In this document: positions 1 through 48,600 of the stretch, piece by piece | How the letters are laid out: the number at the start of each line of letters is the position of its first letter | How positions within the stretch are numbered: the first letter of the stretch is position 1 | From: Tetradesmus obliquus | Taxonomy: Eukaryota > Chlorophyta > Chlorophyceae > Sphaeropleales > Scenedesmaceae | DNA: 64,000 bases | Direction of reading: 5' to 3' | Assembly: GCA_030272155.1 (NCBI GenBank) | Contig: CP126203.1 | Location: forward strand, 3,968,001 to 4,032,000 | The notes under the pieces: generated by a model | The model's input: the letters and a program-made list of their open reading frames with translations, nothing else | Told to the model about the DNA's origin: nothing | Database searches by the model: none | Made by a program: the position numbers and the translations under genes

Positions 1-28
1 CTGCTGCTGCTCCTGCTGCTGCCGCCAG

Positions 29-94
29 GTCACCCCTGAGGGCAAGTACCTGGTGAAGGGTGCCGCGCGCATCCAGGTGGACGCGCTGCCGCTG
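29..94 (+). pseudogene. Duplicate of the 5' edge of the 188-346 exon, with acceptor
   Basis: These 66 bases repeat the first 66 bases of the exon at 188 almost exactly, preceded by their own CTG-rich tract and CCAG acceptor. After base 94 the sequence falls into CTG repeat. It could be a usable alternative acceptor or a dead copy. Confidence 0.6.
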
Positions 95-124
95 TTACTG
101 ACCTGCTACTGCTGCGGCTACTGA

Positions 125-129
<5 letters not shown>

Positions 130-182
<53 letters not shown>
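130..182 (+). repeat. (CTG)n run forming the intron 3' end
   Basis: A near-perfect CTG trinucleotide run lies directly upstream of TTTTCAG. It occupies the polypyrimidine-tract position of the intron before the exon at 188. Confidence 0.8.
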
Positions 183-183
<1 letters not shown>

Positions 184-187
184 TCAG

Positions 188-346
188 GTCACCCCCGAGG
201 GCAAGTACCTGGTGAAGGGCGCTGCGCGCATCCAGGTGGACGCGCTGCCGCTGCCCGACGGCTCTGCTGCCGTGGGTGTGAACTACTTCAGGGAGAACAC
301 CAGCTTCATGACCAGCCCAGTCAGCCCAGTGCCGCCATCGGCATAA
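188..346 (+). CDS. 3'-terminal exon of an unrecognised gene
   Basis: This is the last coding exon of a gene whose body lies left of the window. It follows an intron ending in a long CTG run and TTTTCAG, and reads 52 codons to a TAA at 344-346. The peptide opens VTPEGKYLVKGAARIQVDAL and ends SPVSPVPPSA. I do not recognise the family. The reading frame is supported because the copy at 29-94 keeps the same amino acids with synonymous differences, as expected for formerly coding sequence. A TGTAA, the usual green-algal polyadenylation signal, occurs near 908 and again near 990. Confidence 0.6.
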   Translation, partial: VTPEGKYLVKGAARIQVDALPLPDGSAAVGVNYFRENTSFMTSPVSPVPPSA

Positions 347-396
347 TCCTTGAAAAGGATGACGTGCCTGCATTGGTCTGAATGTGGTAGTGTGTA

Positions 397-453
397 GGGG
401 AGAACACCAGCTTCATGACCAGCCCAGTCAGCCCTGTGCCTCCCTCGGCGTAA
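397..453 (+). pseudogene. Degenerate copy of the terminal exon's 3' edge, including stop
   Basis: This stretch repeats the end of the 188-346 exon: ENTSFMTSPVSPVPPSA followed by TAA. It lies 51 bases downstream of the real stop. Confidence 0.6.
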
Positions 454-519
454 TCTGTCATCACGATGACAGCAGTGCTGCGTGCTGGCGTGCTGGGTGT
501 TGCGCCGAGTGTTGCTTGC

Positions 520-564
520 AGCTTCTTGACCAGCACCGCCAGCCATGTGCCGCCCTTGGCATGA
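520..564 (+). pseudogene. Second, more diverged copy of the same exon end
   Basis: It reads SFLTSTASHVPPLA then TGA and aligns to the last 45 bases of the terminal exon with several substitutions. With 29-94 and 397-453 this makes three edge copies around one exon. Confidence 0.45.
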
Positions 565-1659
565 TAAGGAGTTCTGATGTGTTTTACAGTGCAGTCATGG
601 GATCTAGAGATTGTGGGGTCTAGGTTTGTTACAGCGGCGTGTGTCACGCGCAGCCTGCTGAACGTGCAGGTGGTGTTGCATGTGCCACGTGGATGGGCTC
701 CAGTGGATTGCTCGGCGCTCATGTTGCGGCACGCCAGATGTTTGCAGCATTGTGCGGCTGATTCTGGCGTTGCAGCTGTTTGTCAACTTATGTTTGCTGC
801 ACTCCCTCAGCAATTGTAGCGCTGCAGTAGGTTTGCTTGTGTGGCAGCTTGAGTGGTTGAGTTCAAGGTAGTGGGCATGGTTGCTTGTTATCGCCTGCTG
901 CTAGTGTGTAACAGTATATGCAGACACGAACAGTTGCGACTGAACACATCAACAGTAGTAGTGCTACACACACCCAAATAAGCTGTAACGTTGTAAAAAC
1001 CACGGCAGGCTGTTGCTCAGCTGAGCAGGGAGGCCACAAGCCACATATGCATGGCAGGACCATACAGTGGCCTGTACATTGGTGCACCGTCGACCATTGC
1101 CCGTTGGCCTATAATACAGTGTATGTGGTAGTTACCCAGCACCCAATGCACGTTGAGCCGGAATGCACAACGGGCTAGCAGGCAGAGCACATTGCGGTTC
1201 TAATGATGTATCTTATGTGTGTTTGTGTTCTGACTTCTGATTTATTTGTGTGTGTTTGTGTTCTGATTTGTGGATGCAATGCAGGTGCTGCTTGTCTCTC
1301 TGCTCTGCCATCAGCACCACAAGATGGGAACAACGTCCATGCACGTCTACCACGCATGAAAGAAACTATAGTGGACGGTTACATCATTGCGAACATGCTA
1401 GAGCTTGTCAGCGCAGGCTGCCGCCAGGTGTTGTGGTTGTGTCCGATGTTACGTATGGCGCTGTGATTCACAATCCGCTGTGCACAGCAAGCACATACTG
1501 GCTGTTATGCAATAGGCACAATTGGCAGTTCTGGGCGTATTTGCTTCTGCGCGGGTCGCTGGACCGAAGGGCTCTTTCACGTGGTCCTGCTACCTTTTGG
1601 CAGCTCACCATGCGTCACACTCTCTGCATCTTTGCACACAATTGATTCAAACGTACCAA
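565..1659. other. Intergenic stretch, no supported gene
   Basis: This stretch separates the gene ending at 346 from the next gene model. It contains two TGTAA motifs near 908 and 990 that could end the upstream transcript, and GT-rich runs around 1216-1270. Short open frames are present but lack splice support. Confidence 0.5.
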
Positions 1660-2263: not shown

Positions 2264-2322
<59 letters not shown>

Positions 2323-3940
2323 AGCCACCTGGCCTCTTGCTTGGCAGCTGGTGTGCGGCCACCTCACCAGCAGCAGTGCCACAGTCAGCGGCCGAGCTGG
2401 CATCACCTTTCTTCCTTCAGTGTTCAAGCCCTTGGCCAAAGCAGCAGAGTCCTGTGCAATGGCTCCTGCAAGCAGCAGCAGCAGCAGCAGCAGCAGCAGT
2501 GGCCTGCTGGGTGCTCTTGTTGGCATATGGCAGAGGATGCAGTGTGCCATGACCTCAGCTGCACTGCTGGCAGCCACCAGGCTTCTGCGTGGTGCATTGA
2601 TTGTGGCACAGGTGAGCATTGCCGCTGCGCCAGCCTTGGCCTGTCTGGGCATCCAGCAGCTCCTCCAGTGGTCTTGCCAGCATGTAAGGTCAGCATTCTG
2701 CTGGTTTCTCAGATTGGAAGATCTGCCCTTGTGCTTGCTGCAGCAGCAGCTTGCGTCACCATCTGCCTCGCCCTTTGCTTCTGTTACCTGATACACTCTG
2801 TGCCTGCTGCTGCTGCTGCTTGTTGTGCAGGGCCTGGCAATCTTCTTTGCCCTGGGCTTCCTGGAACCGGAGATGTCCCACACAGCAGCAACGCCCCTGC
2901 GGCTCAGCCTGTGCCTGCTGCTGCTGGTACCCTTTCCCTGCCCCAACTTTACTGCTCTGCGGGGCATGCTGCCAGGCAGCAGCAGCAGCAGCAGACAGAC
3001 AGAGCATGAAGATCCCTGCGACTGCTGTAGCACCAGCAGCAAAGCAAGCTCTACTGTCTCACGCACCAGCCACAACAGCGACAGCAGCAGCAGCAGCTTG
3101 GTGCAGCCGTTTAACCCGCACGCTTACTGGCAGCGGCCGCTGCTGCGGCAGGCAGTGGTGGTGCTGCAACGGCTGCTGCCAGTGTATATACAGTGCATGA
3201 TGTTGGGAGGGTTGGGGGAGCGGCACCAGGCGTTGAAGTCGATGTACCTCAGCCGGCTGTGGGGCTACATGTATGTGGGCTGGATTGGGTGGATGCTTGT
3301 TGCGGTGAGTGGTGCATAATGATTGTTCTGTTGTGTTACTTTCTTGTGGGGCTACGTGTATATGGGTTGATTGGGTGGGTGCTTGTGGCAGTGAGTGCGC
3401 ACAGAGGTCGTTGTTCAGGTACAGGTTCCCTGCATTTTTCAATGCCCGCATGTGTGCATGTGTAGGACTGCAAAACTAACACAGCATGGCGGTCTTGCAT
3501 TTTAAATCGAGAGCACTTTGCACCACTGTATTCTCTGGTCAGAGGCAATCTTAAAAGAATACTGAAATTCTCTTTGCTGGCGAGCAAGCCAGCAAGCAAG
3601 GCTGGCTAACTTACCAGCAAAGAATCTTTCAATGTAGCAGTGCAGTAGCTTCTTGGTGTACCTGCGTGCCTGCCTACCTGCCTGCCGCCTGCCTGTCTTT
3701 GTGGCCGGCCTGTCTCGTCAAACAAGTGGTTTTCACGCCCTTTACCTTCTAATTGTAACCAATGTGTTTTTCCTGGTGGGCTAATGTCGTCTTAGATGCT
3801 GCCTGTACCTTTTTAAAAGAAAGTGCAACATGTTATGTTCTCCGGCACCTGGCAGGTGCCCTTCAAGCTTCAAGTTGCTGTCAGCTGCCTGGAGTGGCTC
3901 ATCATGCTGGCCACTGCATCCAAGCTCATCCCAGGCCTGC

Positions 3941-3974
<34 letters not shown>

Positions 3975-4125
3975 CATCCCTGGTCTGCCGAGCAGCAGCA
4001 CTGCCGGCAGCATTGCTTTCTTGCTCTACCATTGCCTCGCCAGCTGCATGTTTGTGCTCTTGCTGCCGAGTTTTGGCGTGTGGTGGCTGGAGCAGAGCCA
4101 AAAGGCGAGGTATGCTGCACTGCTG

Positions 4126-4166
<41 letters not shown>

Positions 4167-5563
4167 GCGGCGGCGGCCAAAGCAGCGGCAGCATATGGGA
4201 GACAGTAGCAGTTCCCTTGCAGCTGCACGAGATGTGCCCCGCACTGCAACAGCAGGATCGCTAGCACCTTCTAGTGTCACTAGCGGCAGCAGCAGCATTA
4301 GTCGCTCTGTCATAATGCACAGCAGCAGGAGCAGCAGCATGCGCCTCAGCACTGACAGCGATAGCTCTGCCAAGAGCGCTGCAGCAGCAGCAGTAGCAGC
4401 AGCATTCAGCACCACCAGCAGCAGCGGAGTCCAACTGCTGCGCGACATTGCTTCAAGCCTGCAGCTGGCAGCGCATGCCACTGCTGCTGCTGCTCCTGCA
4501 TCACACAGCAACGCTGGATACGCACCGCAGCAGGTTCCACAACTGACGTCAACCTCCATCTTTGCAGCTGCTGCTGCTGGTGCTGCTCCAGCTGGTACTG
4601 ACCCTGTTACTGGAATAGCAGCACAGCCAGCAACAGCAGCAGCGGCAGCGCTAGGACCCCTCGAGTCTCTCCTAGCAGCCAGCAGCGGCAGCAGCAGCAC
4701 TGCTGTCCTGCCAGACATGCTGCCAGGGCTGAGAGGTTTACTAGGAGCCCATGAGGCAGCAGCAGTGTTTGCAGCAGCAGCAGAGCAAGCGGCTGCTCAC
4801 CAGGCGGGTGGCGGCAGGCGCCCCCGCAGCTACAAGTCTATGGCAGGGACACTGCCTGTCAGCATCAAGGTGAGGCCGGCTTCGCAAAAGTGGATGCAGT
4901 GCGAAAGCTTTTGATAAAGTGGATGCAGTGCAAAAGTGGATGCAGTGCAAAAGCTTGTGATAAAGTGGATGCAGTGCAAAAGCTTGTGATAAAGTGGATG
5001 CAGTGCAAAAGTGGATGCAGTGCAAAAGCTTGTGATAAAGTGGATGCAGTGCAAATGCTTGTGATAAAGTGGATGCAGTGCAAAAGCTTGTGATAAAGTG
5101 GATGCAGTGCAAAAGTCGATGCCGTGCAAAAGCTTGTGATAAAGTGGATGCAGTGCAAAAGCTTGTGATAATGGGGATGCAGTGCAAATGCTTGTGATAA
5201 AGTGGATGCAGTGCAAAAGCTTGTGATAAAGTGGATGCAGTGCAAAAGCTTGTGATAAAGTGGATGCAGTGCAAAAGCTTGTGATAAAGTGGATGCAGTG
5301 CAAACGCTTGTGATAAAGTGGATGCAGTGCGAAAGCTTTTGATAAAGTGGATGCAGTGCAACAGTGGATGCAGTGCAAAAGCTTGTGATAAAGTGGATGC
5401 AGTGCAAAAGCTTGTGATAAGTTTGTTGTGTCATTGTGTAGCAAGAGCAAGAGGAAGCAAATTGATTGGCTACAGCCGCAAGCCTTGTGCGCCAGGTGAG
5501 AGCAACAGCTGTGCAGCTCTCATAATGCGCGGCTGGCTGAATGTGGAAGCTAAACAAAACATG

Positions 5564-5595
<32 letters not shown>

Positions 5596-6194
5596 CGCAG
5601 GTGCACAGTGCCCACCACAGCATGGTGCCGTCCTTGGGACCCCTGCTGAGTCAGGCCCTGCAGCAGCAGCTGCAGCACACACTCTCAGCAGACAGCAGCA
5701 GCAGCAGCGCTGTCTCACCCTTCTACATGCATTCCGCCTGCTTTGCTGGCTGTGTGCAGCTGATTGCAAACGTGTTTGTGCTTCGTGAGCCTGAAGCACG
5801 CTTCAGTGGGCCCCCCCCTGGTGCAGGCTGCAGCAGCAGTAGCAGCCTTGATGAGGGCAGCAAAAGTGGCAGTAACATCAAGAACAGCAGCAAACGGAGC
5901 AGCTCACACAGCCAGCAGGGAAGCGGCAGCGCAATCCAGAATGCATCACATCCACTGCTAGGTGCAGGCGCGACAACAGCAGCTGCTAGCTTGCTGGCTA
6001 AGGCCAGCAGCATGCTCACTGCTGCTGCTGCTGCTGCCACAGATTCTTCAGCAGCAGGAGGCTTTTGGGATGGGCTTGATGCAGCAGCTGAAGGAGTAGA
6101 GGGGCTGGGGCTTGTGCCGCAGCACCTTGATGTCATGGTAGGCTGTGCTGCTGCTTCTACAGGCAACAACAGCAGTAGCAACGGGTCTACCAGG

Positions 6195-6229
<35 letters not shown>

Positions 6230-6316
6230 TAGCCTGCTGCACTGCCAGCCGTGCTGCTTGGTGGCTGATGAGTCTCAGCAGCTGCAGCTGACTGTGGACC
6301 TGTCTTTTGCAGACAG

Positions 6317-6371
<55 letters not shown>

Positions 6372-6771
6372 GCTACTGAGGTGCCTATCCGGCTGCTTGC
6401 AGTGCAGCAAGGTCAGGTCGTGCTGGATGAACGTTTGACAGTGGCAGTGCAGCAGCAGCAGAGTAGGCGTGGCAGAGCTTGTGTCAGGTGAGCGTTTGTG
6501 TTGCTGTCATGACTTGACGCATCGGAACATAGTCGAGATGTTGACCTAACTTTGTGGTTTGATGAGACCTGTATGTCGACTTTGAACATGTCTGTAGCAC
6601 AATCTTGCTTGAGCTTGCACTGTGTAACATTTGCTGCCTTCATTTGTTGCCATCCTGTTGTTGCTGCTGCAGTGTGTCTCTGCCCAGTCTTGCCCCCGGC
6701 CTGGTGCATGTGGCCCTGCTGCCTGTCAGCACCCAACCAGCAGCAGCAGCAGCAGCAGCACCCTGCAGCAC

Positions 6772-6809
<38 letters not shown>

Positions 6810-9800
6810 TTGAGACAATCGCAGCAGCCCCACAGCAGTCGGCAGCAGCAGCAGCACCAGCAAGTGCCGGCTTGCTGCTGCTGCAGCCGCTGCTCGTGCT
6901 GCCAGCACCAGCAGCAGCAGAGCTGCAAGCGTTTAGCCAGGCAGCTACAAAGGATGCAGCAGCAGCACAGGCAAGGCTCACTGGTCAGCACTCAATAGGC
7001 AGCAGCACTGATACAGCTGCAGCAGCAGCATGGGCTACCGTCTCCGCACTCACAACAGACCTAGGCTACCTACTATCAGCAGCTGAAGGCATGGACAGCG
7101 CTAGCAAGGCAACAACAGCAGCAGCAGCCGCAGGGTTGGGCCAGGAAACTGCTGCTGCTGCAGGGCTGCTGCCGGCTGGTGTTGCTGCTGTGCTGAGTCA
7201 CATGGTCCAGCACCTGGCAGCATGGCAGTGCTGGCAGCTGACGCACTTCCTGGTGGAGACGCTGCAGACAGCAGCAGCAGCAGCAGCAGCAGCAGGAGCA
7301 GCAGGAGAGTTGGGCGCAAGCAGATTGCCTGCACATGGTGTAGGGGCGACAGAAGACATGTCAAAAGAGATTACGGCAGCGGCGGCCATGGCCACCAATG
7401 ACAGCGGCAGCAGCAGCAGCAGCAGCAGTGGAATGGCCGGGGTTGCAGATTGCAAGGCAGGAGGTGATTCACTACCTGCTGCAGCCGGCGTGGAGTTTGA
7501 GCCAGACACAAAGCCATCTACAGGTAGCAGCAGCAAGGGTAAAAGCAGCAGCAGCAGCAGCAGCAGCAGCAACGCAAAGCATGCCTCAGAGCACTCAGCC
7601 ACAACAGCAGCTGCTCCTGATCTAGCAGCAGCAGCAGCAGCTGAAGCAGCAAGGCTCTCAAAGGGCAGCAGGCTGGCAGCGGCGCTGAGTCAGCTGTTAT
7701 ATGGCTTCATGAGTAATCCCCTGGAGCTTGCCTTCCTGGATTACATCACACACCAGACGTATGCAGTAGACGCATTTGAGGCGATCTATGCGCTGGCAGT
7801 CGGCCTGAGTGCTAACCTCCTGACAGACGAGCTTCAGGTGCATTGGTCAGCAGCAGCAGCAGCAGCAGGCGCTGAGGGTTTAAATGGTGGAGGGTTTACT
7901 GGTGTGTTTTGGCTTGCAGCCTGGGAGGTTGCCAGCAGGGCAGCAAACTTCCTACTGCTGGTGGTGCCCAACTTTGTGCTGCTGCTCAACAGGCACAGGC
8001 TTGCAAGGGGCGGCAGGTGAGCGATGGGTTTAGACCCAGCTGTTGCCGGTAGTCTAGTGGTTTGTGCAATATGTGTGTGCAGCTGGACAGCTTGGGTTAG
8101 GCATTGGATCTACTCAGAAAAATGGTATGCTATGTCTCGTCTCGCCAGCGCTGCTTCTATGACAGCTGCTGCTGCTGTTGCTGCTGCCATCCGTCATATG
8201 CGCGAGGTTGTCGTTGAGTGCTAAACCACATGCTTACGTCTGCTGCCGCCACATTCTTCCTGGTTGTTTTGACAACTGCAGGCGCGAGAGTGCCATCATG
8301 GCGTGTGAGTGGGCGCTAGCAACCGTGCCGCTGGCCACTGGGCTGGGCCTGATGCGGCACAACAAGTCGGCGGTGGCTATACTGGCCAACCCTGCCCTGG
8401 CTGTTACACTGGCACTATGGGGCTCAGGCTGCTTCAAGGCAGCCTGCCGGCAGGTGAGTGGTAAGGGGGAAGGATACAATAGAATTGGGTGTTTAGACTG
8501 CGCTACCCAGGGGTGGGGTGGCCTGATTTTTCACTTTTTCTAAGTTGTTATAGCTAAGGAAGTTATTTCGGCCGTTTTGGAGGCCAGTACTGCACCCGCC
8601 TCTGCTATTGTAGTGCCTGGAGTCATCCTTGGACTCAGCAAGGAGGGTTCTGGGCGTAACAACAAGAGCTACTAAAGCGACACGGCCCAAACAGAGTTGA
8701 TTGTTATCGAATCATAAGCAGATTTTCGCCTTCTGGCCCGATTCCAAATTGCAAAAAGTGTGCACTCGTTGAGCACTCGTTTCTTGCTTCTACTTGTGCT
8801 GCCGTGATTTTTGCAATTCACATTTGCGCCGCCTTCAGTCAAACTATATATATCTCTAAAAAAGAATAAACCGGGAGACGTGGCGTGGAAGGCACTCTTT
8901 CAGCTGTGGCATCAGTCGTGACGGATCAGTGATTGCTGTGCCCTGCCTGCACCGAAGGCGGGCGTGTCGATGTCATCACGAGCTTGTAAGATCATCCATA
9001 GTAACAAATAAAAGTTTCAGCGGCTTTAGATGGCTCCAGTTGAGGCCTTGAATGAAGTTCTCACTGGTTGTTCCCTGCAGGGAGCTGGTGACGCCCTGGT
9101 TGCCGTGTTAGGACCATAGCGACGGAGCTTTTCAAAAACGAGTCAAAAATGTTTTATCGATGTACAATGTACATCAAATCCTATTCATGACGCCCTGAAG
9201 CCCCACAAAAGCTAATTGTATCCTTCCCCCTTAAAAACACGTGTAGCGGGGTGGTGACACTGTTTTGTTGGGATAACATAATGGTGTGGAATCCTCCTGG
9301 TCGACGCTGCACTGGCTGTGACGCTGGCGCTGTGGGGCTCCGGCTGTTTTAAGGCGGCTTGCCGGCAGGTGAGGGTTGTTACAAATGTGACATATGGGAC
9401 AGGAATGTGACAATTGGCCGTTGCTGCAAAATGCCATGGCTAGCCAATCTGCCCTGGCTGTTACACTGGCACTGTGAAGATCAGGCTGCTTCAGGGCGGC
9501 GTGCCGGCAGGTGAGGGGTTGTTTAATGTGCATGCAGCAGAAGCGCACGTTGTTGCAAAACACAATGCTTGTTTGACAATGTCTGATCCCACACATGTCG
9601 CATGAGTTGACGTAGGCAGGACCCGCTCTCAGGACTCTGCGCAACGTTGCATGACGTTGACCCCGTCCCGCTGCTGCTGCTGCTGCTGCCGCAGATCCGC
9701 GCCCGCCGCCTGCTGCCCTCCATGCTCGCAGAGCTGCTGGGTGCTGTGCTGCTGTCGGTTGATCTGGGCCTGTCACTGCAATTCAGCATCATTCGCTATT

Positions 9801-9882: not shown

Positions 9883-9932
<50 letters not shown>

Positions 9933-9955
9933 GTCAAGCCTGCACTGCAGGGTGA
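1660..9955 (+). CDS. Large low-complexity multi-pass membrane protein, 8 exons
   Basis: Phase-consistent exons: 1660-1818, 2030-2683, 2831-3304, 3856-4869, 5601-6487, 6673-8016, 8282-8453 and 9695-9955 (TGA), about 1654 residues. Every junction is GT-AG and phases close throughout. The protein alternates hydrophobic segments (around residues 36-53, 245-265, 280-300, 430-455 and most of 1370-1640) with CAG-encoded runs of Ser, Ala and Gln. It resembles a polytopic membrane protein, but I do not recognise a family and assign no function. The start at 1660 is the first ATG directly ahead of the charged/Pro-rich N-terminus; 1672 is an alternative. Exon 2 could instead end at the GTGAG near 2612. 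A TGTAA lies at 10296-10300. Exons 7 and 8 have degenerate copies downstream. Confidence 0.65.
2253..2321 (+). repeat. CAG run coding poly-Ser in exon 2
   Basis: A CAG/AAG-interrupted trinucleotide run is read as AGC (Ser) here. Similar runs in the same gene are read as CAG (Gln, 4126-4164) and GCA (Ala, 6197-6228), so all three sense frames of the repeat are used within one protein. Confidence 0.8.
4885..5420. repeat. 29-bp minisatellite filling intron 4
   Basis: About 18 tandem units of 29 bp with the core GATAAAGTGGATGCAGTGCA; some units are truncated. It sits wholly inside the intron 4870-5600 of the membrane-protein gene. The antisense strand is open in all three frames, an effect of the repeat period and not a gene. 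Confidence 0.9.
8462..9233. mobile_element. Non-autonomous TIR element in intron 7 (TA target)
   Basis: The sequence TAAGGGGGAAGGATACAAT at 8462-8480 reappears as its exact reverse complement at 9215-9233. If TA is the duplicated target, the element has 17-bp terminal inverted repeats starting AGGGGGAAGG and is about 768 bp long. It carries no ORF worth reporting. It lies eight bases inside intron 7, just after the donor. TA targets are typical of Tc1/mariner-like elements; that assignment is inference. Confidence 0.65.
9307..9368 (+). pseudogene. Copy 1 of exon 7's 3' edge with donor
   Basis: It reads ALAVTLALWGSGCFKAACRQ followed by GTGAGG, as does the end of exon 7 (8392-8453). Differences from exon 7 are mostly at third positions. 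Confidence 0.75.
9442..9510 (+). pseudogene. Copy 2 of exon 7's 3' edge, with internal stop
   Basis: It aligns to 8385-8453 and keeps the CAG/GTGAGG donor, but TGG has become TGA, so the copy cannot be translated through. It lies 74 bases after copy 1 in intron 7. Confidence 0.75.
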
Positions 9956-9978
9956 GGTGTAGCTACGCAACTGGGTGT

Positions 9979-10059
9979 GCGCATTCCTGATGCGGCTGAC
10001 TAGCCAGCAGCAGCAGCAGCAGCAGCAGGGTCAAGCCTGCAGCGGTGCTGAGTGAGGGG
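9979..10059 (+). pseudogene. Copy of exon 8's 3' end after the stop codon
   Basis: It repeats GCATTCCTG...CGGCT..C, a CAG run, GGTCAAGCCTGC and the GTGAGG that close exon 8 (9858-9960), with a shorter CAG run. Confidence 0.6.
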
Positions 10060-11839
10060 TACCTGATGGGATGAGTGTGGCGTCAACGGGTGTATAGCGG
10101 ACCTGTTTTGTGCGTTCAATGAGCGGGGAAAACCAGATGGATGAAGGCCCGGACTCTGGACCTGAACCAAGTGCCGCAGCACCAAGGTCTTACACTTGGT
10201 CATGCTTGCTTGTCATGGTAATGCATTGTGGCTGTTGAGTTCAAACCGCCTGGCAAGTTGCATGTTTTGAGCGCTTGGTGGGCGTGCTGGTGTGTTGTAA
10301 CCTTCTAAGTTGCTGCAGCTAAACTACCTGCTGTGGTGGATTATGATGTGTGTGCAGCTGAGATGTCAACATGCTTGCATGATGCCACAGTGGGCCTTTT
10401 GCAGAGACCTGGGATGTCAAGCAGCATGATGACAACACTTACCCTTAGTATGTGTGCCTGGGGCGATACCTGCGAGTGCTCTCATAAATGACGTGTGCGA
10501 TGGGTGTGCGAGTATGATCGTGGCATGACCGCGTGGCATGTCTGCTGACTGGTTTTTTTGCGCTAATACAAGGTATGCCACAGTAGGTCTTTCGCAGCAG
10601 TGGTCTGGGCTGCCAACTAATTGTGGCAACCAGCCTGATGATCAACCTGCTGGCGATGTGGGGGATTTGGCATGCTTGTACATGCTGGCATTGGTATATG
10701 CATATATGCCATGTGCTTTAGGTGTGCGTCACATGGGGCGGCAGCCAGAGCTTCAGCCAATGCCTGCAGCACCAATAACATTTGGCAGTCAGTAACACAT
10801 ATCCTGCTGTGGTGGCACATGCAGAACTATTGATCGATTGCATGCAGTGCTCTTGATGGTGGTTGATGGTTTAACCCAGGTTGGGCAGTTCTCTACTGTC
10901 AGCAGACTCGTCACGTATTGTCACGTTGGTTTGCGCTAGCAGCTGCCACGTATGCGCTGCAAAACCCCTGTGTAGAGGATGCAACTGGGAGCATAGCTGT
11001 CCTGCAATGCCATGCCAGCCCTCAGTGGCAGCTAATCTGCTTTATGATACGCTGCGGATGCTTCTCTTGCAGCCTTGCATGTAGCTGCACAGCCTCTGTT
11101 GATGATGTTGTTTGGTAAGGTTCTGATGCATGTGACGGTGAAACACGGAACCTGTGCTTGCTGTGGCTTTGAGGGTATGTTGCTTGCAGCATCAATGGGC
11201 CCATATTTTGCTGGTGTCCTCACCCTGTGCCAGGCACAGTCACTGGCAGTGGCTGCAGGAGTGCACATGCCCCCTGGCATAGAGAAGACTTTGAAGAGAG
11301 GAGGAGGATAACTTTTGGCAATTGCAGTGTGCCCTTGCTCGTTGGATATTTCTTGCAATAAATGACGTCATCGGCTGGTGTAGACCCTTACGATCTGTAC
11401 ATAGTTACAAGGTGGCATACACTCTGCTGCCTGGGATGAAGCCTTTCACTGCCTAGTGGTGCAAGAAGTTTTACAAGTACGTAGCACTGCTGAGCCCGCT
11501 GCAAATTGCGCAACGTCATGTTATGAGTTGCCACCAGGAGGGCCCAACGATGGGGTGATGTCACTTGAGGGTATAGCACTGGGGCTGTTTTCTCTTCTTG
11601 CTTGAATGTTGTGGCTGGGCTGGTTGCAGGAGCGGTTGGTCATTCAAGGCTGCAGGCCCTGCATGTAGTATAGCCAGCACTGCTGCAAGATGTTGTTAGG
11701 TGTTGCCAGCATTAATGCCAGCAATATTGCCAGTATTGCCAGCAGTAGCGCCAGCTCCATGCGCTTAAGGTGTTTCCTGCGCTGTTTCAAACGGTGGCGG
11801 CACAGCAAACCTTTGTTGTGGCCTGGCAGCAGCAGCAGC

Positions 11840-16594: not shown

Positions 16595-16631
<37 letters not shown>

Positions 16632-36200: not shown

Positions 36201-39200
36201 ACTTGAACATGGTACATGTGCATCATGCAATGCATGAACAGTCATCTGCGCCATGCACAGCACCATTTGAGTGGCTGTGCATGTCAAAGTCGTAACAACG
36301 TGCCAGCTGCCAGCCGTGCAAAGAGGCGTGCAAGATCTAGCACATTTGCCAATCCAGTCTATGCCTACTATGTATATGAGTGCAATAAGCCTATAAGCAG
36401 CGCTGTCACTAGCAGCAGAGTTGTCCCTGCTTACCCAGTTCGAAACAAATCCCATCGGGTGTACTCCAGTTGCCCAGGCTGCAAGTTGTCTGCAGGGTGG
36501 TCTCCTCAGTTAGGCCAAATCCTGGGAGGCAGCTCGTGCTACACTTGCCGCCAGATGGCGTCTCTGGGCAGGTGTAGTTGGCAGCATTGTCAGGCGCTGC
36601 AGGGCCTAGTTCAGTGCAGTCTGCAGGCAGCCAGCAGCAGGACATACGCGTTACAGCTGTCTCGATTTAGCTGCTTGCTTACGTCACCAATCACTGTATA
36701 CGTGTGCATTGTGATAGCTGTTGTGCTCAAAATCACATAGCTTCTGAGTTTCAAACTTGACTGCAGTGCACATGTACCTGCCTGTTGATGCGAGTCACAT
36801 AACCCGGGTCAGCGGTACCGTACCGGGCGGTCCAATTTTGCTGCATTACGTAGTATTGCGCCTGGGAGCAGCTTTGCATGAGATGATGCGGCACATTCAC
36901 CGCATGCAGGTCTACCTTGCCGCACTTGCAAAGTAGCGCTTGTACTGGTAGCAGGCAACTATTTAATCACCGACGTCACCGATGCAACTATTGCTGATGA
37001 GACACTGTGTGTCGAAACTTTACCACCAGCCATCAGGCGACTTACTTGAAGGGCTGCACACGCCTAGCACCTCACTCCACACAGGAACAGCATCGCTGCT
37101 GCACACTGCAACCAGGGTGCCACTTGTGAGTGTATAACCCGGTTGGCAAGTTGTGGTGCAGACATCACCGGGTCCACTCAACCCAGTGCAGTCAAATGCT
37201 GTTGCATTGGCAGGCGCTGTGGGGCTGCCAGAGCAGCCGAGTACGGGTGGGGGAGGCAACACGTATATGGTCTGTACGGCAGTGGCTGCAGGCAGAGGCA
37301 TGTGGCAGGCACGGCAGGAAGGATTTATGCATAAGCATCCAGAAACAACATCATGCAAATGAACTTTGCACATATAGATTGGCGCTGCTTACGGTAAGCT
37401 GCTCCGGAAGCCGCGTCGAGGAAATTTTGTTGATGTGCGCATGCAACTATGAGTCAAGACACATCAGCAGTCTCATGTGTGTCAAGCCAGGTAAGGGGAC
37501 AGCTGAAACCATTCTACACCTGTGTTATCAGCACTGTCTTTGGCTGTCCATGTAAGTGACACCTGCAGCAGCAGCAACAACAGCAGCAACAGCAGCAGCA
37601 TCAGTAGCGCCACCATCACCAAGCACTTTCAACATTGAGACTGACGGGGTCGCAATAGTTTGCCAATAGGCGTGTTGGTTTCTGCTGCTGCCACGTCGGT
37701 GTCCGTCACATCAAACATGCATTGTGCATAGCGACACAGCAATCAGAGAGCATGCAATCCACAGCTGAATGGCATCTTGCACATCATGTTACCCAAATCA
37801 CACACCGTGTAAACCTCATCGGCACATGGCAGGGGCTCTGTCAGCGACACTGGCAGTGAGTTACTGCTGCTGATATTTGGCGCAACCAAGACGATGATGC
37901 CATCCACTTTGTCGTATGCGGTCAATCCCTGCAGTGCACACGTGTCGAGTTGTGACGGTGTGTGGAAAGAAACAATGTCAGCAGCTCCCTAAGCTGCTAA
38001 GGACTCCAGTGCCTCGCATGAGGGTTGAAAGTACTTGGGACGCAAGGCAGCGTGCGACCTATGCAGCATGCTGCCAGCGGTGCAAATATGCTGTATGCAA
38101 GCCGCGCATGAATTATGTATGACTTGCGAGCAGTTCTATGCAGCGGGTGTCTGCCGTACATGATGTGCTGCTTGCTTACCGTGGTGTTGAGAATGGTAGA
38201 CTCACAGCTTGTTGTGTAGTCTGCTGGAGCGAGCGTAATCACCGGCGGCTGCACATCTGCTGGGGGCTGCTCAGGGTTGCTGTACGTAGGATCCAGGCAG
38301 GCTGCTGCTGGGATGAATTCGCAGCTGTTCGGAATGGCCGAGTTGGGTTTGCAGGAGTCGGCACAGCAGTCGCCACCTATGCCACACAGATTTCGATGCC
38401 CACATCAGTCGAATGTGATGAGGATGATTACAAGCAAGTTGCAAACCCTCCATCAACAACAGGGGTGTGGTACTTTCTGCATGTATGTCATTTTGCGTGA
38501 TAATGTGCGAGTTTTTATGGTATCAAATTGTGCTGCTTCATGACAAGCACAGTAGCATGCACGGCAGCAACCACGGGCACACTGCTTACATGACCTATGC
38601 ACCAGCGCAAGGCAACCTGCGCGCTTGAACACTTACCGTCCCAGTTGTTTGCTTCATTGTTGAGGCTGGGGTCACACACGCCGCTGGTGCCTGCAGCCCC
38701 AACACAGTTCACAAATACCTCAGTCGAGTACAGAATTTGCCGGCCGATTTGATATGGCAGTGATGATTATGAATGCTTGCATGCCAATTGCAATCTCACT
38801 GTCAGCAGCACAGCGCAGCTACGGCCAACCTTGGAAGAACAACAACACAACCAGCAGACAGGCGACCGCCAGGTGTGCCGACTTCAACATAATCAGCAAG
38901 CACAGCAAAACAAAACTGTGACACAGATTTCACTGCTTGCGAATTGTGCTGGCAACAGCGATCCCATGTTTGCCACAGGCACCAAGGTATATACAGCATT
39001 CTGTTAGTGCCTGCACTAGAAGCCGCGGCCAAGCTTTGTCAGGCAGGCCTGCAGCCTCACCTGTGGCTAAGACCAGCTTTGCTCGTCCAACACGTTGCAG
39101 CACTTCCTTTACGTCCACAACGTCACCCGCAACAACGGGCAGCAGCAGGCGCTGCAGCAGGCTGTTAGGGCTGCTCACAGCTGTTCCTGTGCAGTTCACG

Positions 39201-39657: not shown

Positions 39658-42600
39658 TTGCTCACACAATGGCTGGCAGGTTGAGGGGCTGCAGGACAGC
39701 CGAACATATCGATGTGGGGTGATGCGTTGAAAACAATGCTACAAGCATGTAACACACTAGCATGTATTGCACCAGCTAGTGCTGCATATTGCACAGGCCT
39801 TATCATGCAAACCTACCAGCCATCATGGCACCAGTGGTGTTCTTACACGTGTTGTTGCCATGAGGAGTTGTTTTGGGAGCGGCTTCTGGTGCAACATATC
39901 TTGAGGCACCTATATTGATATCTGCACAATATACAAGCGTTCTAGAGCTGATGGCACGCTCATCTGCTGGTGGCAAGTGCGGTGTACATTCGGCAACGTT
40001 TCATGCTTCTGCCCCCACTCACCAGCAGTCCCCTCCATCGTAGTTGCAGGCTGGGCTGTTCAACCAAGGTGACGGGGAGCAGAAGCTGTTGCCAACCTGC
40101 ATGCCAGCAACATAAGTAACGCATTCACAACAACCTCTACATTCTCGTGCGTACTCGTACGAGTGGTAGCTAGTGGCGTGCAGTGTTTCCGTGATACTGC
40201 TGAGATGGTTTGCTCTTGGGGTATGCACAAACACCCGCCAGGGCCTGGCACACAACCATGGTCTAATGCCGAGGCTCAGGATGCTGGCCATGCCATATCC
40301 GCCTCAACAGCACTGCCGGACGTACCTCAGCAAGGAACGTGCTGGCATTGGCAACGAGCCCGAGTTGCGCAAGCTCTTCACCTAGAAGGCTGCATGGCTC
40401 ATTCGGCTCAAATGATTTGAGGCTCCGACTTGCAAGCAGTCTCCTGCCGAGCCCTTTCAGGGTTGGGTCAGGAGATGGTGTCTGTGCCAGAATTTGCAAC
40501 TGTTTCATCTTGCTTTCTGGCACAACTGTTACTCCGCTGCATTGTGCTGCATTTGTTGCTCCAACAATGGTAGCGTCGGTGCCATCTGCATCAAGTTTCG
40601 ATGCGGGATGACAGGCATGGCATGCGTTGGGTGTCATTATGGGGCATTATGTAATTGTTCGGTATAGTCTGCAGGTGATACACACGTAAGTGCACATGAG
40701 TTTGCTTCACTGCATTCTGAGTTGCAGGTGATACACACGTAAGTGCACATGAGTTTGCTTCACTGCGTTCTGAGTTGCAGGTGATACACACGTAAGTGCA
40801 CATGAGTTTGCTTCACTGCGTTCTGTGTTTTGGTATCATACCGGGCAATGAGTGAGGTGCAGTGCTGGTCAGTGCTGCCCGCGACAAGCAGATGTAGTAT
40901 TATATCAAACCACCTGATTTTGCAGGGTGCCATGGTCACCAGAGCTCGCTGGTGAGAGTAAGCGTTGCGCAAATGATCAGCAGTTCCCTGATGAATAACA
41001 CTTTGATGCACTGCATCTGTAGCACATAACAACTAGACTCCCTTTAGGCCAGGCCGTTTGCAGCCGGCTTACCAGGGCATGGCAGGCATGATGTGCGGCC
41101 AGTAGATGGCTGGTAGGTGCCTTGCTCGCACGGCGTAGGAGTGATTGTGCCCGCCAAAGGGGCGTAGTACCCTGCCGGCGCTGCTGTGCAGGTCGTGTTG
41201 GTAGCACCGTATGCTGCATATGTGCCTGCATGCAGTCAACGACATCCTGCTGTCAGTTGTGGCTCGTGATTGTGCACTAAAAATACCAAGATCTGCTTGC
41301 TTCTGCATCAGCAATGAGGTGGCAATGCTGTCCCCGCAACAAGCAGGATTCAAGAGTACATATGCATCCTGCAGCTGGGTAGCTGCAGATAGCTGTGTAA
41401 ATGCCATGCCGCGGCACCTACCAGGATCACATTCCGTGCACAACGTCTCAGTTGCTGTTCTGTATGTTCCGGGAGAGCAGTCTGCACAGTAGCTGGTGAC
41501 TGTCGTGCCGTTTGTGGAGTTGGTGGTACTGACAACGAGTACAGTGCCAAGTGGGCAAGTACTGCATTCTGTTGCCCCTGGCTGGCTGTATGAGTTGGCA
41601 CCGGTGCAAGCAACACATACGGATGCATTGCTCGCTCCAACAGCGGTAGAATAGGTGACTGCAAGTGCACAAGCAGCGGACACAGTGGTGAGACGTTTTG
41701 TCATGGTGTTGCAGGGCGCATGCCGTTATGCATACATACATCATGAAATCAGGTTGATACAGTTGAAACCTTTGAATGGCATTGGAAATCTGCACTGCAT
41801 GTTTCTGAACAGCCGCGAGCATTTCAAGTAGCTGCTGACTATCACACGTTGTGCCTTGACAGCAGCATCACTGATCCATTATTGCAATGGTGTTCGCGAC
41901 TGACAAATGAGTTGTGGGCTATGGATACCACTTGCGCAATGCCGGTTTTTGCAGGCTTTCAAAGCTTTGTTTTTAAAAGCCAGCTGGGTGGGTAAGGGAG
42001 GCCATGCGGGCATGCGCAGAGCCTCATTCTTCTGACGTGTTTGCTGCTTGTCACTGTTTCAAGCGCAGGCAGTCAGCAGTGCAAGAAAGTTCAGGGCCAG
42101 TATGCACACCGACAGACAAAGCATCAGGCAGTCCACTCACGAGCAGGGCACAGGGTGCACGACGCCTGTCCGTAGTTTTCACTGCAGCATCAGCACAACA
42201 GGTGAAACAAAAAAGGGCCGGGTCAAAAAAAGGCAAAGTGGGGTCACTGCATTTGCTATGCATTTCCTGTGCTGTGCTGCCATATGTGACAAGCTCGACG
42301 CCTTTTGAGTGCTCGGCTGCCCTGCCAAGCAGCCTTGCCAGACACTCCGTGAGCAGCCTGCATTCAAGTGTACACTGTAAGATCCCTGCACGCATGCACA
42401 GTTCTTGCCAACGTGACTGCTTCTAACAGCCCTGAAGTTGCTCACGCATATGTGCCGGGTGGGCAAGGTGTGGGCGCTGCACTGCCCGTGTTGTTGGTGT
42501 AGGTGCCAGGTGGCGTCAGCGTGCACATGGAGGAGCTGTTTGAGCGATAGGTGCCAGCATCACATGCCTGCAGTGCGTAACACGCGTTAGAGGATGAAAA

Positions 42601-45600
42601 AGAGCGATAGGTGCCAGCGTCACATGCCTGCAGTGCGTAACACGTGTTAAGGGATAAAAGAATCCAGCATATTGTCATTCATCCAACAAAATGCAACAAA
42701 ATGCAGGAAGTATTTGATGCTGTTCGACAGCACTGGCAGCGCAGGTGCAGCTGATGTGTTCAACATGCAGCATCTAAGCAAGACACGCGCAGCACTTTGC
42801 AACTGCATTGTGCGCATACAGGAGGTGGAATATCTCCTGCATAGTGTTGGTTGTAATAATCAAAAAGTGTTACAGGAGTTGCAGCGCATGGTGTGGCGTA
42901 GTCAAGTGCATTTAAACATTTATACACATTGCAAACACATTGCAGACTGTCACTCGTGCCACAATGCTGAGGGCAACTACTCACAGTGCAGTTGCCGTTG
43001 CCTGCTGGGTCTTCAGCCCCAGGGCCGCTGCAAGCAGTGGCCAACAGACGCACATGTTGTGATGATAACATTCCTGAGCCTGGAAAAGATCTCAGATTGA
43101 GCAACAATCATTTCTCTGTGTCTATATTATCTAGGCTGTGCCACTGAGCTGCATTGATGCAGCATCGAGTTTTGTGCTGCATCAATGGGACATCCCAGCA
43201 TTCTTCCCATATGCTGGTTTGTTGCAACAAGGTTGGCAGGTTTGGGGGTCACTTCATGAATCAGGGAAGGCAAGCCATGTTGGTGGTTCCTAAGTTGACT
43301 TGGCGCTTGCTGCAGATTTTCAGTGCCCATCAGCAGCACACCACACTCACCAAGCGCATTTCCAGACCACCTTCAGCACATCATTCGGCCCCGTGGTGCC
43401 AAGTGATGGGCTGTTGGGGTCCAGAGTGCAGGAAGTGCCGTTGGCGTTGCACATGTTCTGCATGCCATCACAACAAACCACAGCTTGTGAAAGGTATCCA
43501 AGCCGTGCACAGCAGATACAATGAAACATAACATGGAGAGGTGCAGACAAGCATCCGGGAAAAGTGAGATGAAGGTGCTGCCGATCTTACAATGTGCAAT
43601 GCAGGTTTACTGACTGCAGCTGCAAAGGCGTTGGCAACTGAGCACAAGCTCACACACTATGTGACTGGGTAACAGTCCAGCAACGCTTTGTAACAATATG
43701 GCTGAGAACACAGCTCTCGCCACAACGCCAGATGTCAAGCTTACAACTTTTAGTTTCACCAGTAGGCCTACTGTGTCACACAGTCCGAGTTGGACTCCTG
43801 CATCAACATATGCGAGGCACACATGTGCATGCATGCAGTATTGAACAAACATACACAAGACTGCTACAACACATGCGGAGCTGTTGAAGTTTTGAATGAC
43901 CCCGCTGCCGCAGCCGTAACGCACCTCCACCACAACCTTGATAGCATCCTGCATTCAAAGAGCGTGGTGTTGTGCGACAGCAAAACACATGTTATAAAGC
44001 AAAATATGAGGGGCATATGCAAGAGCACATGTGCAAAGCAAGGGTAGATTTATATGTGACTGGCCTGGTGGCATGCAGCATGCACATTCAGTTCTCCAAG
44101 TGGCAGATAGTAGTTTATGATATTATCATAATACTGAGTATACTGCGTTACGTAACGAAGCCGTAGACATACATGCTGCTTTGTTTCATGCATTGTGAAG
44201 CGCCCATGACATAGCGTTGTGGTTGAGACATGTGTTGTGTTGAAGTTTACCTTGATAGTCCTGCCTGAGCCCACTTCTGCTGAAACAATCTGCAGCACCT
44301 GGTTGGCTCCGCAGCCAATCTGCTTGGCTGCGGTAACAAGCGACACCTTGAACACCAGCGTTGTGGAGCTGCCAGAAGTCATAGAAGGATCGGGCACGCA
44401 AGCGAACTGAATGACGCCCAGGTTCTTGGCGCACCTGCACACATCACATAAAGGTTCGATCGAGATCAAATATCGGATTGGGGTACTCACCATCATCAGC
44501 CTGCGACTTAAACCATGGACTGAACACGCTTCTGGCAGCAGCCATGCTCCACGCCTCCACTCTTGGTTCCTGGTTTCACCATGGATTTGCTGAGTATGAT
44601 CTGACTGCAATCACTGATTGCTGAGCAGTCATAATGACTTGCGACCTACAACTGGCGTGCATACCGCGTAGCTGAGCTATGCTGCTGGTAGCGAACTTGT
44701 TGCATGCACGTGCAGCAACCTGCTGAGCGCATTCCTGCAAATGCTCAACTGGGCGTAGCATAAGCTCACAAAGCACATGACTAGTGAACCTGGCTGTGGT
44801 GCTTTCTGCATGTCGCATCGTTAGTCAACCTGCCACAAAACGCTGCGCAAAGTTCATTTAGGTTGTGCATGTAACCAGTGGCCAGAGCGTGAAATGAGAC
44901 TAGCACCATACATGTATTGCGTGCACGCACCGAAAAAGATCTGCAATAGGGCAGCTGCCCTTGGTGTACTGGCAGGCAGCCAGAGTAGCTGCACAGGTGG
45001 CGGTCAACTGCAGGGCAGCCACGAACACAAGCGTGCATCAGATTATCTGTCCAAGCGGTATGTGATATGAGCAGGCATGCATCAGCTACTGCTTGAAACC
45101 ACATGGAACATTGTTCTTAGACACAAAAAATCTGACCATGCAGGCAGCAGACTGCTGCAGAAAGGTGATCTTGAAATGCACTACGCACTGGCTTGTGGGC
45201 AAGAGGTCACACCAGTGTTTGCCGGCATGCATGTGCCGCTGCCGCATTAGAACACACCGTGCATCACCAATGGGTAATTTGCTACAACTTTCAAGCAGCA
45301 GAAACTCAGCGAGAGGGGCGTGAACAACATCTGCACTGCATGATCAGAAACCTTCGTGGGCAGCGCCCATGACGCCATCATGTGTCACGACATTGAATCA
45401 TCGTATTGAAGTGCCGAACTCGCGCAAGCAATGGTTGCTCCAAGATGTCGCTGAACGAGCAGACACAGCAAAGTCACATGCAACCATCAGGACGCCTGCT
45501 ACCAGCCCTTACCGTGGCTGGCCTTGCAGCGTAGGCATCGAGCAGTGCTCTGCGCGCAGCATACTCCTGCACATGCACACAACAATAGAGACATGCAAGG

Positions 45601-48600
45601 TAGCGGCGTAGCATCGCAGGGGTTTGTGTGGCGGTGTGTTGTAGCTGATGGCATGGGCAATTGCATACAGTTGATCTGGACCCTAGCTAGCTCCAGGGCA
45701 TTAACCTAGGACGCTCTACAAGAGCTTCTGGACCTCCACTGGCAGTGGAGGTGACCTGGAACGTGACAATTTTGTGAGCCACAACAGGACTACGTGGTTG
45801 GGGACTATGAAGCGTTCAATGACAGAACAAGGCACAATGCACACCCTTGCACGCGAAGTATTATGCGCTGCGCACACACGATGCTCTCGTTTTTTTGTGT
45901 CCACAACTGCAGTTGCCTCTACACTGTAGGATGCAGCAATGCAGGTCAAACCGTTTGGCATGGGCGTGCGCACCTGGCCCCGCACATAGTCCAACGCGCA
46001 CTCTGCAGCCCACTGAGCAGCAGGTGTTGCCAGATTCTCCTGTGGCAGCAAGTGCAAGTCAAAAATGCTAGAAATGGACGGGCCGCTGACTCATTCAAAG
46101 TTGTGTGTAGTTCGAAAGCATTGCTTGTTGGTATCAAGCAAGCAGGAGGCAAGTCACTCTGCATCTTGCTTTACGCCATGGTCATGCAACTGCTGCAGCG
46201 GACTTGGTGCTCAGTTGCTTCTGTGTGCTCACGCCTGCGGTGTTTGCCGTGTTTGCCGTCATAAGCAGGCACACTAATTGCACTGGCATATGGTCTGACA
46301 GCCAGGACACAACTTCCCCACCTGTGAATTCTGTGCATCCATGAAGTTGGTCACGGTTGTGGTGCTCAAGTCTGCAAAATAGTAGTACATCTTGCTGAAG
46401 TAGGTCGAAGCCGTCAAGCTGGAGTTGACATCAGGCGTGGCGCCAGGACCAGTGATGGTTCTTGAGCGGGGGCCGCACCAAGCAGGCCTGTCTGAGAAAC
46501 ACGCAGTTGGCCTGCGACACCAGCGGTTTGGTCATAATCTTGCCACAAAGTAGAAGAGCAGTGCTGCGCTTGTCCTGGTTTGGGGTCACAGCACTTTGCA
46601 AAAGTTGTTTCACGGTGTGCGTAGTGAGCAAAGTCTGCCACATATGCCATGAACTGAAGGGGCTGTTTCCACCGAAACCCGGTTTCCTCGGAGGTGCACA
46701 GCATCAGCTCAGCAACTGAGAACTCTGCCTGTCCACGTTTGCTGCACTGCTCACCTTTGTGACGTTGGCACGTTGTCGCCACAGACGGATGCTGGCACTA
46801 CAGCTGTCTTCAGCACAGGGTCAGCAGTGGGGCTCACAAGCGGCCAGTTTGGTGACCGGCTGCTGGTGTCGCACACGACGTTGTTTGATTGAGTAGAGGA
46901 GGCTGAGCTTGGCTTTGCGGGAAATTTCCCAGGGTAGCATGTTGGCCCAATCACCTGCTGCCTGCACTCTGCCTCCGTGGATGCACGGGTCACGTTCCAC
47001 GTTGAGTGCGACAGGTGCGATCTGCAAGCACACACGTCCAGCGGCCGTGGCTAACCAGCCACATTGGAACTTTGTAATGACGTATATCACATCACCATAC
47101 CCACAGCATGTCGACATCCCGCCCACCGCGCAAGTGTGCAGCACAATGCATACACGTGGCGCACCGAGGCAGCGCAAAGTGTGCAGCGCGCTGCATACAT
47201 TTGGCACACTGGTGCGCCTCAGTACTGTGGCCGCTGCAACTTTCAAATCCACAATATATGGGTGCAGGCCCCACACTCAACCACCCTTTCTGGTAGGGGC
47301 CATATTGGCGGCCCTAACTACAATTGCCAGCTGCAGCTGTTCAGCTGAACACTCCATGCATGGCTCGAATAATGGGAAATTTGTATTTACAGTAGAAGGG
47401 CTGATAGCATTTAGCAGCTAGACTAAAGACTGCGCTGTTACCTGCCGCTGCCGCCATCGCTGAAGTACTCGCAGGCTCCCCTGGGCGCCCAGAAGTCCCT
47501 GAACTGCTGCTCAGTAGGCGGGCCAGACCATGGCAGCAACATGGGCGGCACCATGCTCTGCAGCAAGGCAAACAAGACATAACGGCAGCGACGTCGTTGT
47601 TGTGAACAACGCAACAGACCATCTGTACTAGCGCCTAGGCACCGGCATGCACCGTCATGCATATAAACAGAGATACCGTGTCATTGCCTTCAATTCACTG
47701 GCAGCATTCGCAAGGCATTCGCAAGGCATTCGCAAGGCAATGACACAGTATCTCTGTTGTGATGCATGACGGTGCATGCCGGTGCCTAGGCGCTAGTAGC
47801 GGACGGCTCGGCGATTGATACCTTGAACGGCGGCAAGTGCCACGTGCTCAGAGCTAAGAGCATACAGCAGTAGCTTACAACAGTAGCATACAGCAGTAGC
47901 CAGAATTAGCGCTTTAGCCGCTACTGTAATATGTGCAACACGAGCTCATGGCAGGGCGAGCACCGTGCGTGCCGGTTGACAGAGCTGTGCCTACGCTGCG
48001 CATTGCTAAAGACATGTGCATTAGCCGCGCTGGACTGTACATTGAAAGAACTACAGCACACGAGAAAACGTAAAGCGCAAGGTGCAACAACCCTGCAGTG
48101 CTGCTTCGTCCTGCAGCATCGCTCCTGCAACCTTAGTAATGGCAACGTGACCTGCAGCAGCGCACTCCACAACACCAAGACATTGTTTCCTGGTGCAGAC
48201 CATGTAGTGGGATTATGGGGTGCACAACAGCATATACCTACCAGCAGTGTGGTCTTGGTGGCATTTGTGAGCGCCCCGATGTAGCCCCGCTTTGCCACCA
48301 TGCGCCAGCCACACATGTCAGCGAGCAGCGCTTGCACTTGGCTCCGGACAAGGATGCGCCAGAAGCGCACGTCATACGTGGAGTCGTACACGCTGCCGCG
48401 GCTGCTGGTATAATTGGCAAGGATGTTGGTCCAGTATGCAGTGTCGTAGCATGCATCCACATCAGTGCCCTGCATCCACATCAGTGCCATGCGGTCGATG
48501 CAGTGCATCCACATCAGTGTTATGCATCCACGCAACATGAGCGGCCACATCAGCAACTCAGCGGTGGAACTAGGTGACCGATATGCCGCGCCCTGGCAGC

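Follow-up and report, generated by a model that had tools for sequence, protein, structure and literature searches.

Direct copies of exon edges in adjoining introns of the green alga Tetradesmus obliquus

Introduction

Proximal duplications resembling products of synthesis-dependent strand annealing (SDSA) are known in vertebrates, and the consulted portions of one study describe 824 human repair-mediated cases with a mean length of 162 bp and a median of 147 bp (PMC2671141; Pace et al. 2009). Their donors include four partial exon/intron segments and four full exons, with one of the exon copies in inverted orientation. In passages of a review (PMC3443670) and of a Drosophila study (PMC2891723), intron gain is traced to duplicated exon sequence around proto-splice sites. 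Here, we report direct local copies of exon edges, splice site included, in the adjoining introns of Tetradesmus obliquus. They occur in a 64-kb window (contig CP126203.1, positions 3,968,001 to 4,032,000 of assembly GCA_030272155.1) and recur in stretches drawn from elsewhere in the genome.

Judged from the same portions of PMC2671141, repair-mediated proximal duplication of the SDSA type is the closest known process. The algal copies share with it short length, a position near the source and some donors that are part exon and part intron; the exon copies tested in that study were unconstrained. They differ in being nearly all direct, in lying at exon edges, in a step of about 115 bp and in their presence in 30 of 149 confident introns. 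Proximity is defined there as less than 5 kb from the source; in our scan, the offset was at most 180 bp in 124 of 137 regions, above 180 bp in 13 and never above 400 bp. The size definition is an inserted piece of at least 50 bp; visible blocks span 20 to 79 bp in 64 of our 87 clusters, and the inserted length is not readable from the visible block.

Intron gain by tandem duplication of AGGT segments, as outlined in the passages of PMC3443670 and PMC2891723, is likewise a local event that duplicates the coding sequence surrounding a splice site. There, the intron runs from copy to copy, and the second copy continues the exon, whereas the algal copies in GSH1 (stretch L009) and in a kinase gene of the window lie inside an existing intron, with the next exon further on and no new intron shown. 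Reading frames rule out intron gain of that kind in both genes. Like minisatellites and other tandem repeats, some algal copies have expanded into arrays, with units of roughly 85 to 150 bp, but only 10 of 81 regions now match head to tail over at least nine-tenths of the unit; intron similarity at some single-copy edges (below) shows that others once did. Retrocopies are spliced, dispersed and poly-A bearing; on the first two traits the algal copies differ, being local and keeping their splice sites. Among the titles, abstract openings and passages covered by our literature search, which left subscription papers outside, we found no description of edge-specific direct copies with a fixed step.

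Materials and Methods

The assembly comprises 104.66 Mb in 17 contigs. We analyzed 274 kb: the window, 20 unselected stretches of 10 kb drawn from 12 contigs and two 5-kb stretches carrying paralogues of the kinase gene. Exons and introns came from a simple gene finder trained on the sampled sequence, which called 414 exons (median, 121 bp) and 342 introns (median, 262 bp). Of the seven GSH1 exons placed by hand, it found six (one with a wrong start), missed one and added several false exons, some of them edge copies; 22 of 62 examined copies were themselves called exons, and every location count carries this error. Because the BLAST self-screen returns no match below 60 bp, the size spectrum was taken from an annotation-free offset scan (36-bp windows, at least 86% identity, each stretch searched against itself only). 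The copy search was confined to each stretch, and the distance distribution is limited accordingly.

Results

Exon edges are copied directly at a step of about 115 bp

Local direct copying of exon edges, with their splice sites, into adjoining introns is real and recurs in the unselected stretches at a step of about 115 bases. BLAST returned 228 direct local duplications and 1 inverted, and the looser rule of the offset scan gave 3 inverted regions. The 137 regions of that scan comprise 30 at offsets of 10 to 40 bp, 10 at 40 to 80 bp, 81 at 80 to 160 bp and 16 above; the 80- to 160-bp class has a median of 118 bp and quartiles of 105 and 134 bp. This peak persists at four other window settings, and sequence shuffled in 3-mer blocks yielded 0 regions. 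In the BLAST clusters, 14 of 124 lay more than 400 bp apart. A relation of step to exon length, judged by eye and uncomputed, was not apparent.

The peak is tied to exons. Pairs of exonic with nonexonic sequence number 47 in the 80- to 160-bp class against 23.6 expected, and wholly nonexonic pairs 14 against 36, whereas the former stand at 3 against 2.1 expected at 10 to 40 bp, 0 against 1.8 at 40 to 80 bp and 5 against 6.1 above 160 bp (n = 16). The location of 124 filtered direct pairs, grouped into 87 clusters, was compared with random placement within the same loci. Boundary/intron (27 observed, 14.3 expected) and boundary/boundary pairs (13 and 3.8) are in excess, intron/intron (9 and 19.8) and intergenic/intergenic pairs (4 and 13.7) are depleted, exon/intergenic pairs stand at 5 against 2.1, and the remaining classes are near expectation.

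The copies are also polar, as an earlier note on the window had claimed from its own examples. Of the 236 3' exon edges, 50 are copied downstream and 11 upstream, whereas the 234 5' edges show the reverse bias, with 40 copied upstream and 10 downstream. The centers of 114 long exons show 6 copies on one side and 4 on the other, and a search of both sides found an inverted copy for 1 of the 470 edges. The same note suggested a genome-wide process, and this holds as far as we sampled: the 80- to 160-bp class accounts for 56 of 93 regions in the 20 unselected stretches, the edge association is found there too, and five of the six GSH1 introns placed by eye carry a copy of an adjoining edge. Density is patchy, with many pairs in L009, L016, L018 and L019 and no direct pair in the BLAST screen of four of the 20 stretches (L003, L005, L008 and L013).

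Break repair and tandem duplication as possible sources

The copies could well be largely neutral relics of imperfect break repair that re-copied about 115 nt across an exon border, a reading we favor tentatively. A break in or beside an exon would be followed by repair synthesis that re-copies this length over the border and is then aborted, and end joining would link the new end to the opposite side of the break. In the product, the exon edge would be followed by a short intron stretch and then, within the intron, by another edge complete with splice site. Survivors would be those products that leave the real exon and its splice site usable, which would leave copies of 3' edges downstream and those of 5' edges upstream. 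The intronic copy would then drift, its intron half eroding faster than its exon half because both copies change there, whereas one exon side is held by selection. Some pairs may subsequently expand into arrays.

Alternatively, and with a smaller but still appreciable probability, ordinary tandem duplication may act everywhere, with edge cases merely easier to recognize (one copy is coding-constrained and the intron part has decayed) and exons not special. The two mechanisms overlap and differ on that last point. Decayed intron similarity, which plain tandem duplication predicts, is indeed present: over 140-nt flanks, it exceeds the 95th percentile of unrelated edges at 23 of 49 single-copy and 33 of 39 multi-copy edges. 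Past the exon-internal block end, the same level is exceeded at 7 of 45 single-copy and 1 of 25 multi-copy edges. (Earlier exon-side controls, now superseded, began inside the block and did not separate the sides, at 7/31 versus 7/31 and 18/45 versus 23/49.) The exon-internal end is thus true and hard and the intron end mostly eroded. The tandem duplication across the boundary proposed in the earlier note accordingly suits many cases; the visible match is nevertheless usually partial, the ungapped portion covering a median of 0.36 of the step. One pair in L015 (1337-1508) shows erosion of the intron part in progress, with an identical 38-bp edge, unmatched bases just past donor +7 of one copy and then intron similarity of 84%.

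Other observations point toward plain tandem duplication as well. Offsets of exon-exon regions in the 80- to 160-bp class are divisible by 3 in 9 of 12 cases, as selection on tandem duplications predicts, and a young, full 60-bp unit lies over a possible acceptor at 42542. These offsets, like the intron similarity seen in many cases, fit both mechanisms. Intron-internal 50-mers are directly copied too, at 67 of 859 tiles with a score of at least 20 (2 inverted); this count enters each pair twice and includes edge copies, and at score 22, 22 of 61 tile matches resemble the flanking exon. The earlier note had named equal copying of intron-internal segments of the same length as the observation that would make boundaries unremarkable. 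The comparison favors edges: at the same score, 42 of the 291 edges tested in confident introns are copied within the adjoining intron (3' edges, 26/147; 5' edges, 16/144), and none of the 291 has an inverted copy or a copy in the intron of another locus. About one confident intron in five has an edge copy, whereas 13 of 149 have an internal duplication free of exon sequence, 7 of which carry an edge copy as well.

Edges also stay ahead when age is roughly matched. Among 165 introns, 14 have an edge copy with exon-part identity of at least 0.94 and 6 have an internal pair of at least 0.85; at an equal threshold of 0.90, the counts are 18 and 6. Two of these 6 are minisatellites with 29- and 34-bp units and at least one (L030 1745) is an edge copy, while a hand estimate from the number of possible positions predicts about 20 introns with an internal pair. 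Ascertainment, about which the earlier note had worried, contributes in part, yet this rough count still puts edges ahead. That lead, and the link to exon borders of the 80- to 160-bp class alone and not of the class above 160 bp, argue against plain tandem duplication.

Less probable again is a distinct process with the same step that is specific to exons, for example repair that finds homology only in exons since introns differ between alleles; we consider it unlikely. It would go on copying exon edges into the flanking introns and thereby supply much intron sequence, so that introns in this alga would grow from the edges of their exons.

Block ends at the splice consensus

An annotation-free test placed 24 block ends at donor +6/+7 against about 1.8 expected, counting both copies of a pair, and gave no peak at acceptors, for which we think the score threshold was too loose. 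With an end query that omits the splice site and the 8 adjoining exon nucleotides, 71 of 76 copies of the exon body approach the splice edge to 12 nt or less (36 at donors and 35 at acceptors), so the 5' and 3' edges behave alike. The match rate is about 0.8 to 0.9 up to donor +6 and mostly 0.4 to 0.6 beyond it, and on the acceptor side it drops after -3/-4. GT is kept in 27 of 36 copies (lost in 9) and AG in 30 of 34 (lost in 4).

Ends at the limits of the splice consensus are what would be seen if a splicing- or RNA-linked process returned splice-site-bounded pieces of pre-mRNA to the locus. We regard this as very improbable, given the short offsets, the equivalence of 5' and 3' edges, the many copies that keep intron similarity and the absent acceptor peak. 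Birth of copies exactly bounded by splice sites was suggested by about nine edges, among those listed, that are identical over 35 nt and have a 35-nt intron flank at background. The 140-nt flanks reveal intron similarity and rule this out for most; among the 13 edges whose nearest copy is a perfect 35-nt match, nine pass the similarity threshold and four fail. In these alignments, the sharp ends result mostly from decay of the intron part.

Coding constraint on the copies

In 64 indel-free frames, exon and copy differ at 214 codons, 123 synonymous and 91 nonsynonymous, with 2 stops and differences of 49:54:135 at the three codon positions. A cleaned set of 35 of 70 copies (dropping 8 in two array loci, 22 called exons, 2 too short and 3 without a usable block) gives 66 synonymous and 47 nonsynonymous codons, positions of 34:22:78 and 2 stops. 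The copies are under weak or no coding constraint, and third-position change lies above the level of simple decay. Exon-to-copy gene conversion does not predict this excess, and copy-to-copy comparison in several arrays found the exon part no better kept than the intron part. As a conjecture, a diverged allele may at times have served as template; this would account for the excess and for those few young pairs whose intron flanks are unrelated, but would need introns that differ far more than exons.

The third-position excess, the frequent retention of splice sites and the presence of edge copies in so many confident introns could also be expected if copies were retained as useful decoy splice sites. 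This, too, is highly unlikely: splice sites are kept no better than the exon body (about 0.8 to 0.9 match per base in both), and stops, frameshifts and lost GT or AG occur.

GSH1 and the kinase gene

The GSH1 gene encodes a plant-type glutamate-cysteine ligase (PDB 9ufc, 6gmo and 2gwc; Pfam GCS2) unrelated to the kinase. It has copies of four 3' edges, of one 5' edge and of the end with the stop codon, placed inside introns by reading frames and protein alignment. A homeologous second locus is ruled out as their source, since GSH1 is single-copy: a genome search gave 11 matches, all on C5 near 1.00 Mb and at one locus. The same kind of search with the L015 stretch returned local copies only, and with pieces of the kinase introns it returned, beyond local copies, only two paralogues at 73 to 80%.

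An assembly or haplotype artefact, with which the third-position excess is compatible through mixed haplotypes and which is judged here from the assembled sequence, is the least probable account, in view of copy identities from 69 to 100%, nonsynonymous changes and a few stops, multi-copy arrays, the lack of a second GSH1 locus and the lack of a kinase locus above 80%.

The label of kinase given in the earlier note agrees with a Pfam Pkinase match. In the paralogue in L029, the intron preceding the catalytic-loop exon has its own copies of the 3' edge before it and of the 5' edge after it, and further edges of that gene are copied as well. The window gene has edge copies on both sides of the intron at the same position. 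In each gene, the copies are most like the exon of their own gene, which implies that events recur at the same places or turn over faster than the paralogues diverge. The seven further copies of the edge of the catalytic-loop exon (Table 1) lie upstream in the sense of the gene. CCCTAAA-like (telomere-type) short repeats adjoin an edge copy in a kinase intron at 23905-24070.

Discussion

The observations established here are direct and local copying, a step of about 115 bp, edge association, polarity, a hard exon end with a soft intron end and recurrence in a paralogue. Break repair is preferred to plain tandem duplication on three grounds: the offsets share a narrow step, inverted copies are almost absent and edges lead in the rough age-matched count. 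Several points weigh against it. Apart from the narrow step, no observation here distinguishes repair from tandem duplication of other origin, and vertebrate repair events, in the parts of PMC2671141 consulted, need not be direct or at edges. Four identical edges (L014, L016 1198, L018 701 and window 22860) have no intron similarity above the 95th percentile, which is unexpected from a sister-chromatid template. In simulations that start from an exact copy and then let the copy decay freely while the exon takes synonymous changes at an equal rate (four settings, 200 runs each), mean third-position changes were 46 to 59 against the 78 of the cleaned set, a value reached in 0, 0, 0 and 1 of 200 runs. 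The synonymous share of young and old copies does not differ significantly (P = 0.23). The age-matched test covers few introns and uses a conversion between identity thresholds of our own choosing, and all comparisons are internal to one genome.

Some introns probably grow in part from their own exon edges. Edge copying would be a simple source of new intron sequence and decoy splice sites with a measurable step, and it is a warning for gene finders, which may call such copies as exons. If the allelic-template version of break repair is true, intron turnover becomes directly testable in crosses and resequenced strains.

Individual copies and other repeats in the window

The earlier note listed boundary copies in at least six neighboring genes. 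Self-comparison matches bear out the gene at 188, the sites between 3258 and 10064, the kinase and the gene labeled CCP (Table 1); two listed sites are of other kinds, 42605 lying in a tandem duplication of two contiguous 60-bp units and 48453 in a tandem repeat with a 19-bp unit. The two segments 291-348 and 398-455 differ at 4 codons, all synonymously, and the donors of the pair in the gene labeled CCP read gtaagta and gtgagta.

Table 1. Copied exon edges and short tandem repeats, by position in the 64-kb window
Positions	Strand	Feature	Match or basis
26-94	+	Upstream copy of 5' edge of exon starting at 188	96% to 185-253; both start at CAG
185-253	+	Copied exon 5' edge, gene at 188	Partner of 26-94
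291-348	+	Final coding segment of gene at 188, including stop codon; copied downstream	93% to 398-455
398-455	+	Downstream copy of 291-348	93%
3258-3311	+	Exon 3' edge with donor	87% to 3345-3397; block stops at donor +7
3345-3397	+	Intronic copy of 3' edge with donor	87% to 3258-3311
8382-8458	+	Exon 3' edge with donor	Two downstream copies, 83% and 86%
9297-9373	+	Copy of 8382-8458, about 0.9 kb downstream	Self-comparison of window
9440-9519	+	Second copy of 8382-8458	Self-comparison of window
9908-9964	+	Exon 3' edge with donor, contains CAG repeat	87% to 10005-10064
10005-10064	+	Copy of 9908-9964	87%
21299-21351	-	Kinase, intronic copy of 3' edge 21406-21458	77%
21406-21458	-	Kinase, exon 3' edge	77% to 21299-21351
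21534-21575	-	Kinase, exon 5' edge	98% to 21628-21669
21628-21669	-	Kinase, intronic copy of 5' edge	98% to 21534-21575
21746-21786	-	Kinase, second intronic copy of 5' edge	93% to 21638-21678
22256-22338	-	Kinase, exon 5' edge	84% to 22397-22472
22397-22472	-	Kinase, intronic copy of 5' edge	84% to 22256-22338
22725-22803	-	Kinase, intronic copy of 3' edge	94% to 22857-22935
22857-22935	-	Kinase, exon 3' edge	94% to 22725-22803
22969-23024	-	Kinase, 5' edge of the catalytic-loop (DLKLDN) exon	100% over 56 bp to 23094-23149
23094-23808	-	Kinase, intron with seven more whole or partial copies of 22969-23024 edge	Starts 23094, 23223, 23329, 23408, 23531, 23650, 23775
23905-24034	-	Kinase, intronic copy of 3' edge	90% to 24045-24171
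24045-24171	-	Kinase, exon 3' edge	90% to 23905-24034
33708-33737	-	Copy of 3' edge with donor, gene labeled CCP	90% to 33791-33820
33791-33820	-	3' edge with donor, gene labeled CCP	Gene structure by eye, not from gene finder
42542-42661	-	Contiguous 60-bp tandem duplication with possible acceptor, different class	Best 36-bp window 97%
48450-48492		19-bp tandem repeat containing 48453	Of another kind than the edge copies

Repeats of other kinds were also seen. In the sampled stretches, L007 begins with a tandem array of about 1.1 kb (1-1135; unit, 191 bp), and L020 holds two tandem paralogous gene segments (3389-7433; 84% to 70%) that are usable for dating copies. The window contains an intronic minisatellite at 4884-5420 (unit, 29 bp; about 15 copies), a second minisatellite at 15061-15336 (unit, 34 bp; 8 copies) and a 173-bp segment at 47626-47798 with 82% identity to its own reverse complement. 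A direct repeat of about 780 bp (34228-35001 and 35874-36644; 72%) has few predicted exons and possibly represents old tandem copies of a gene or element.

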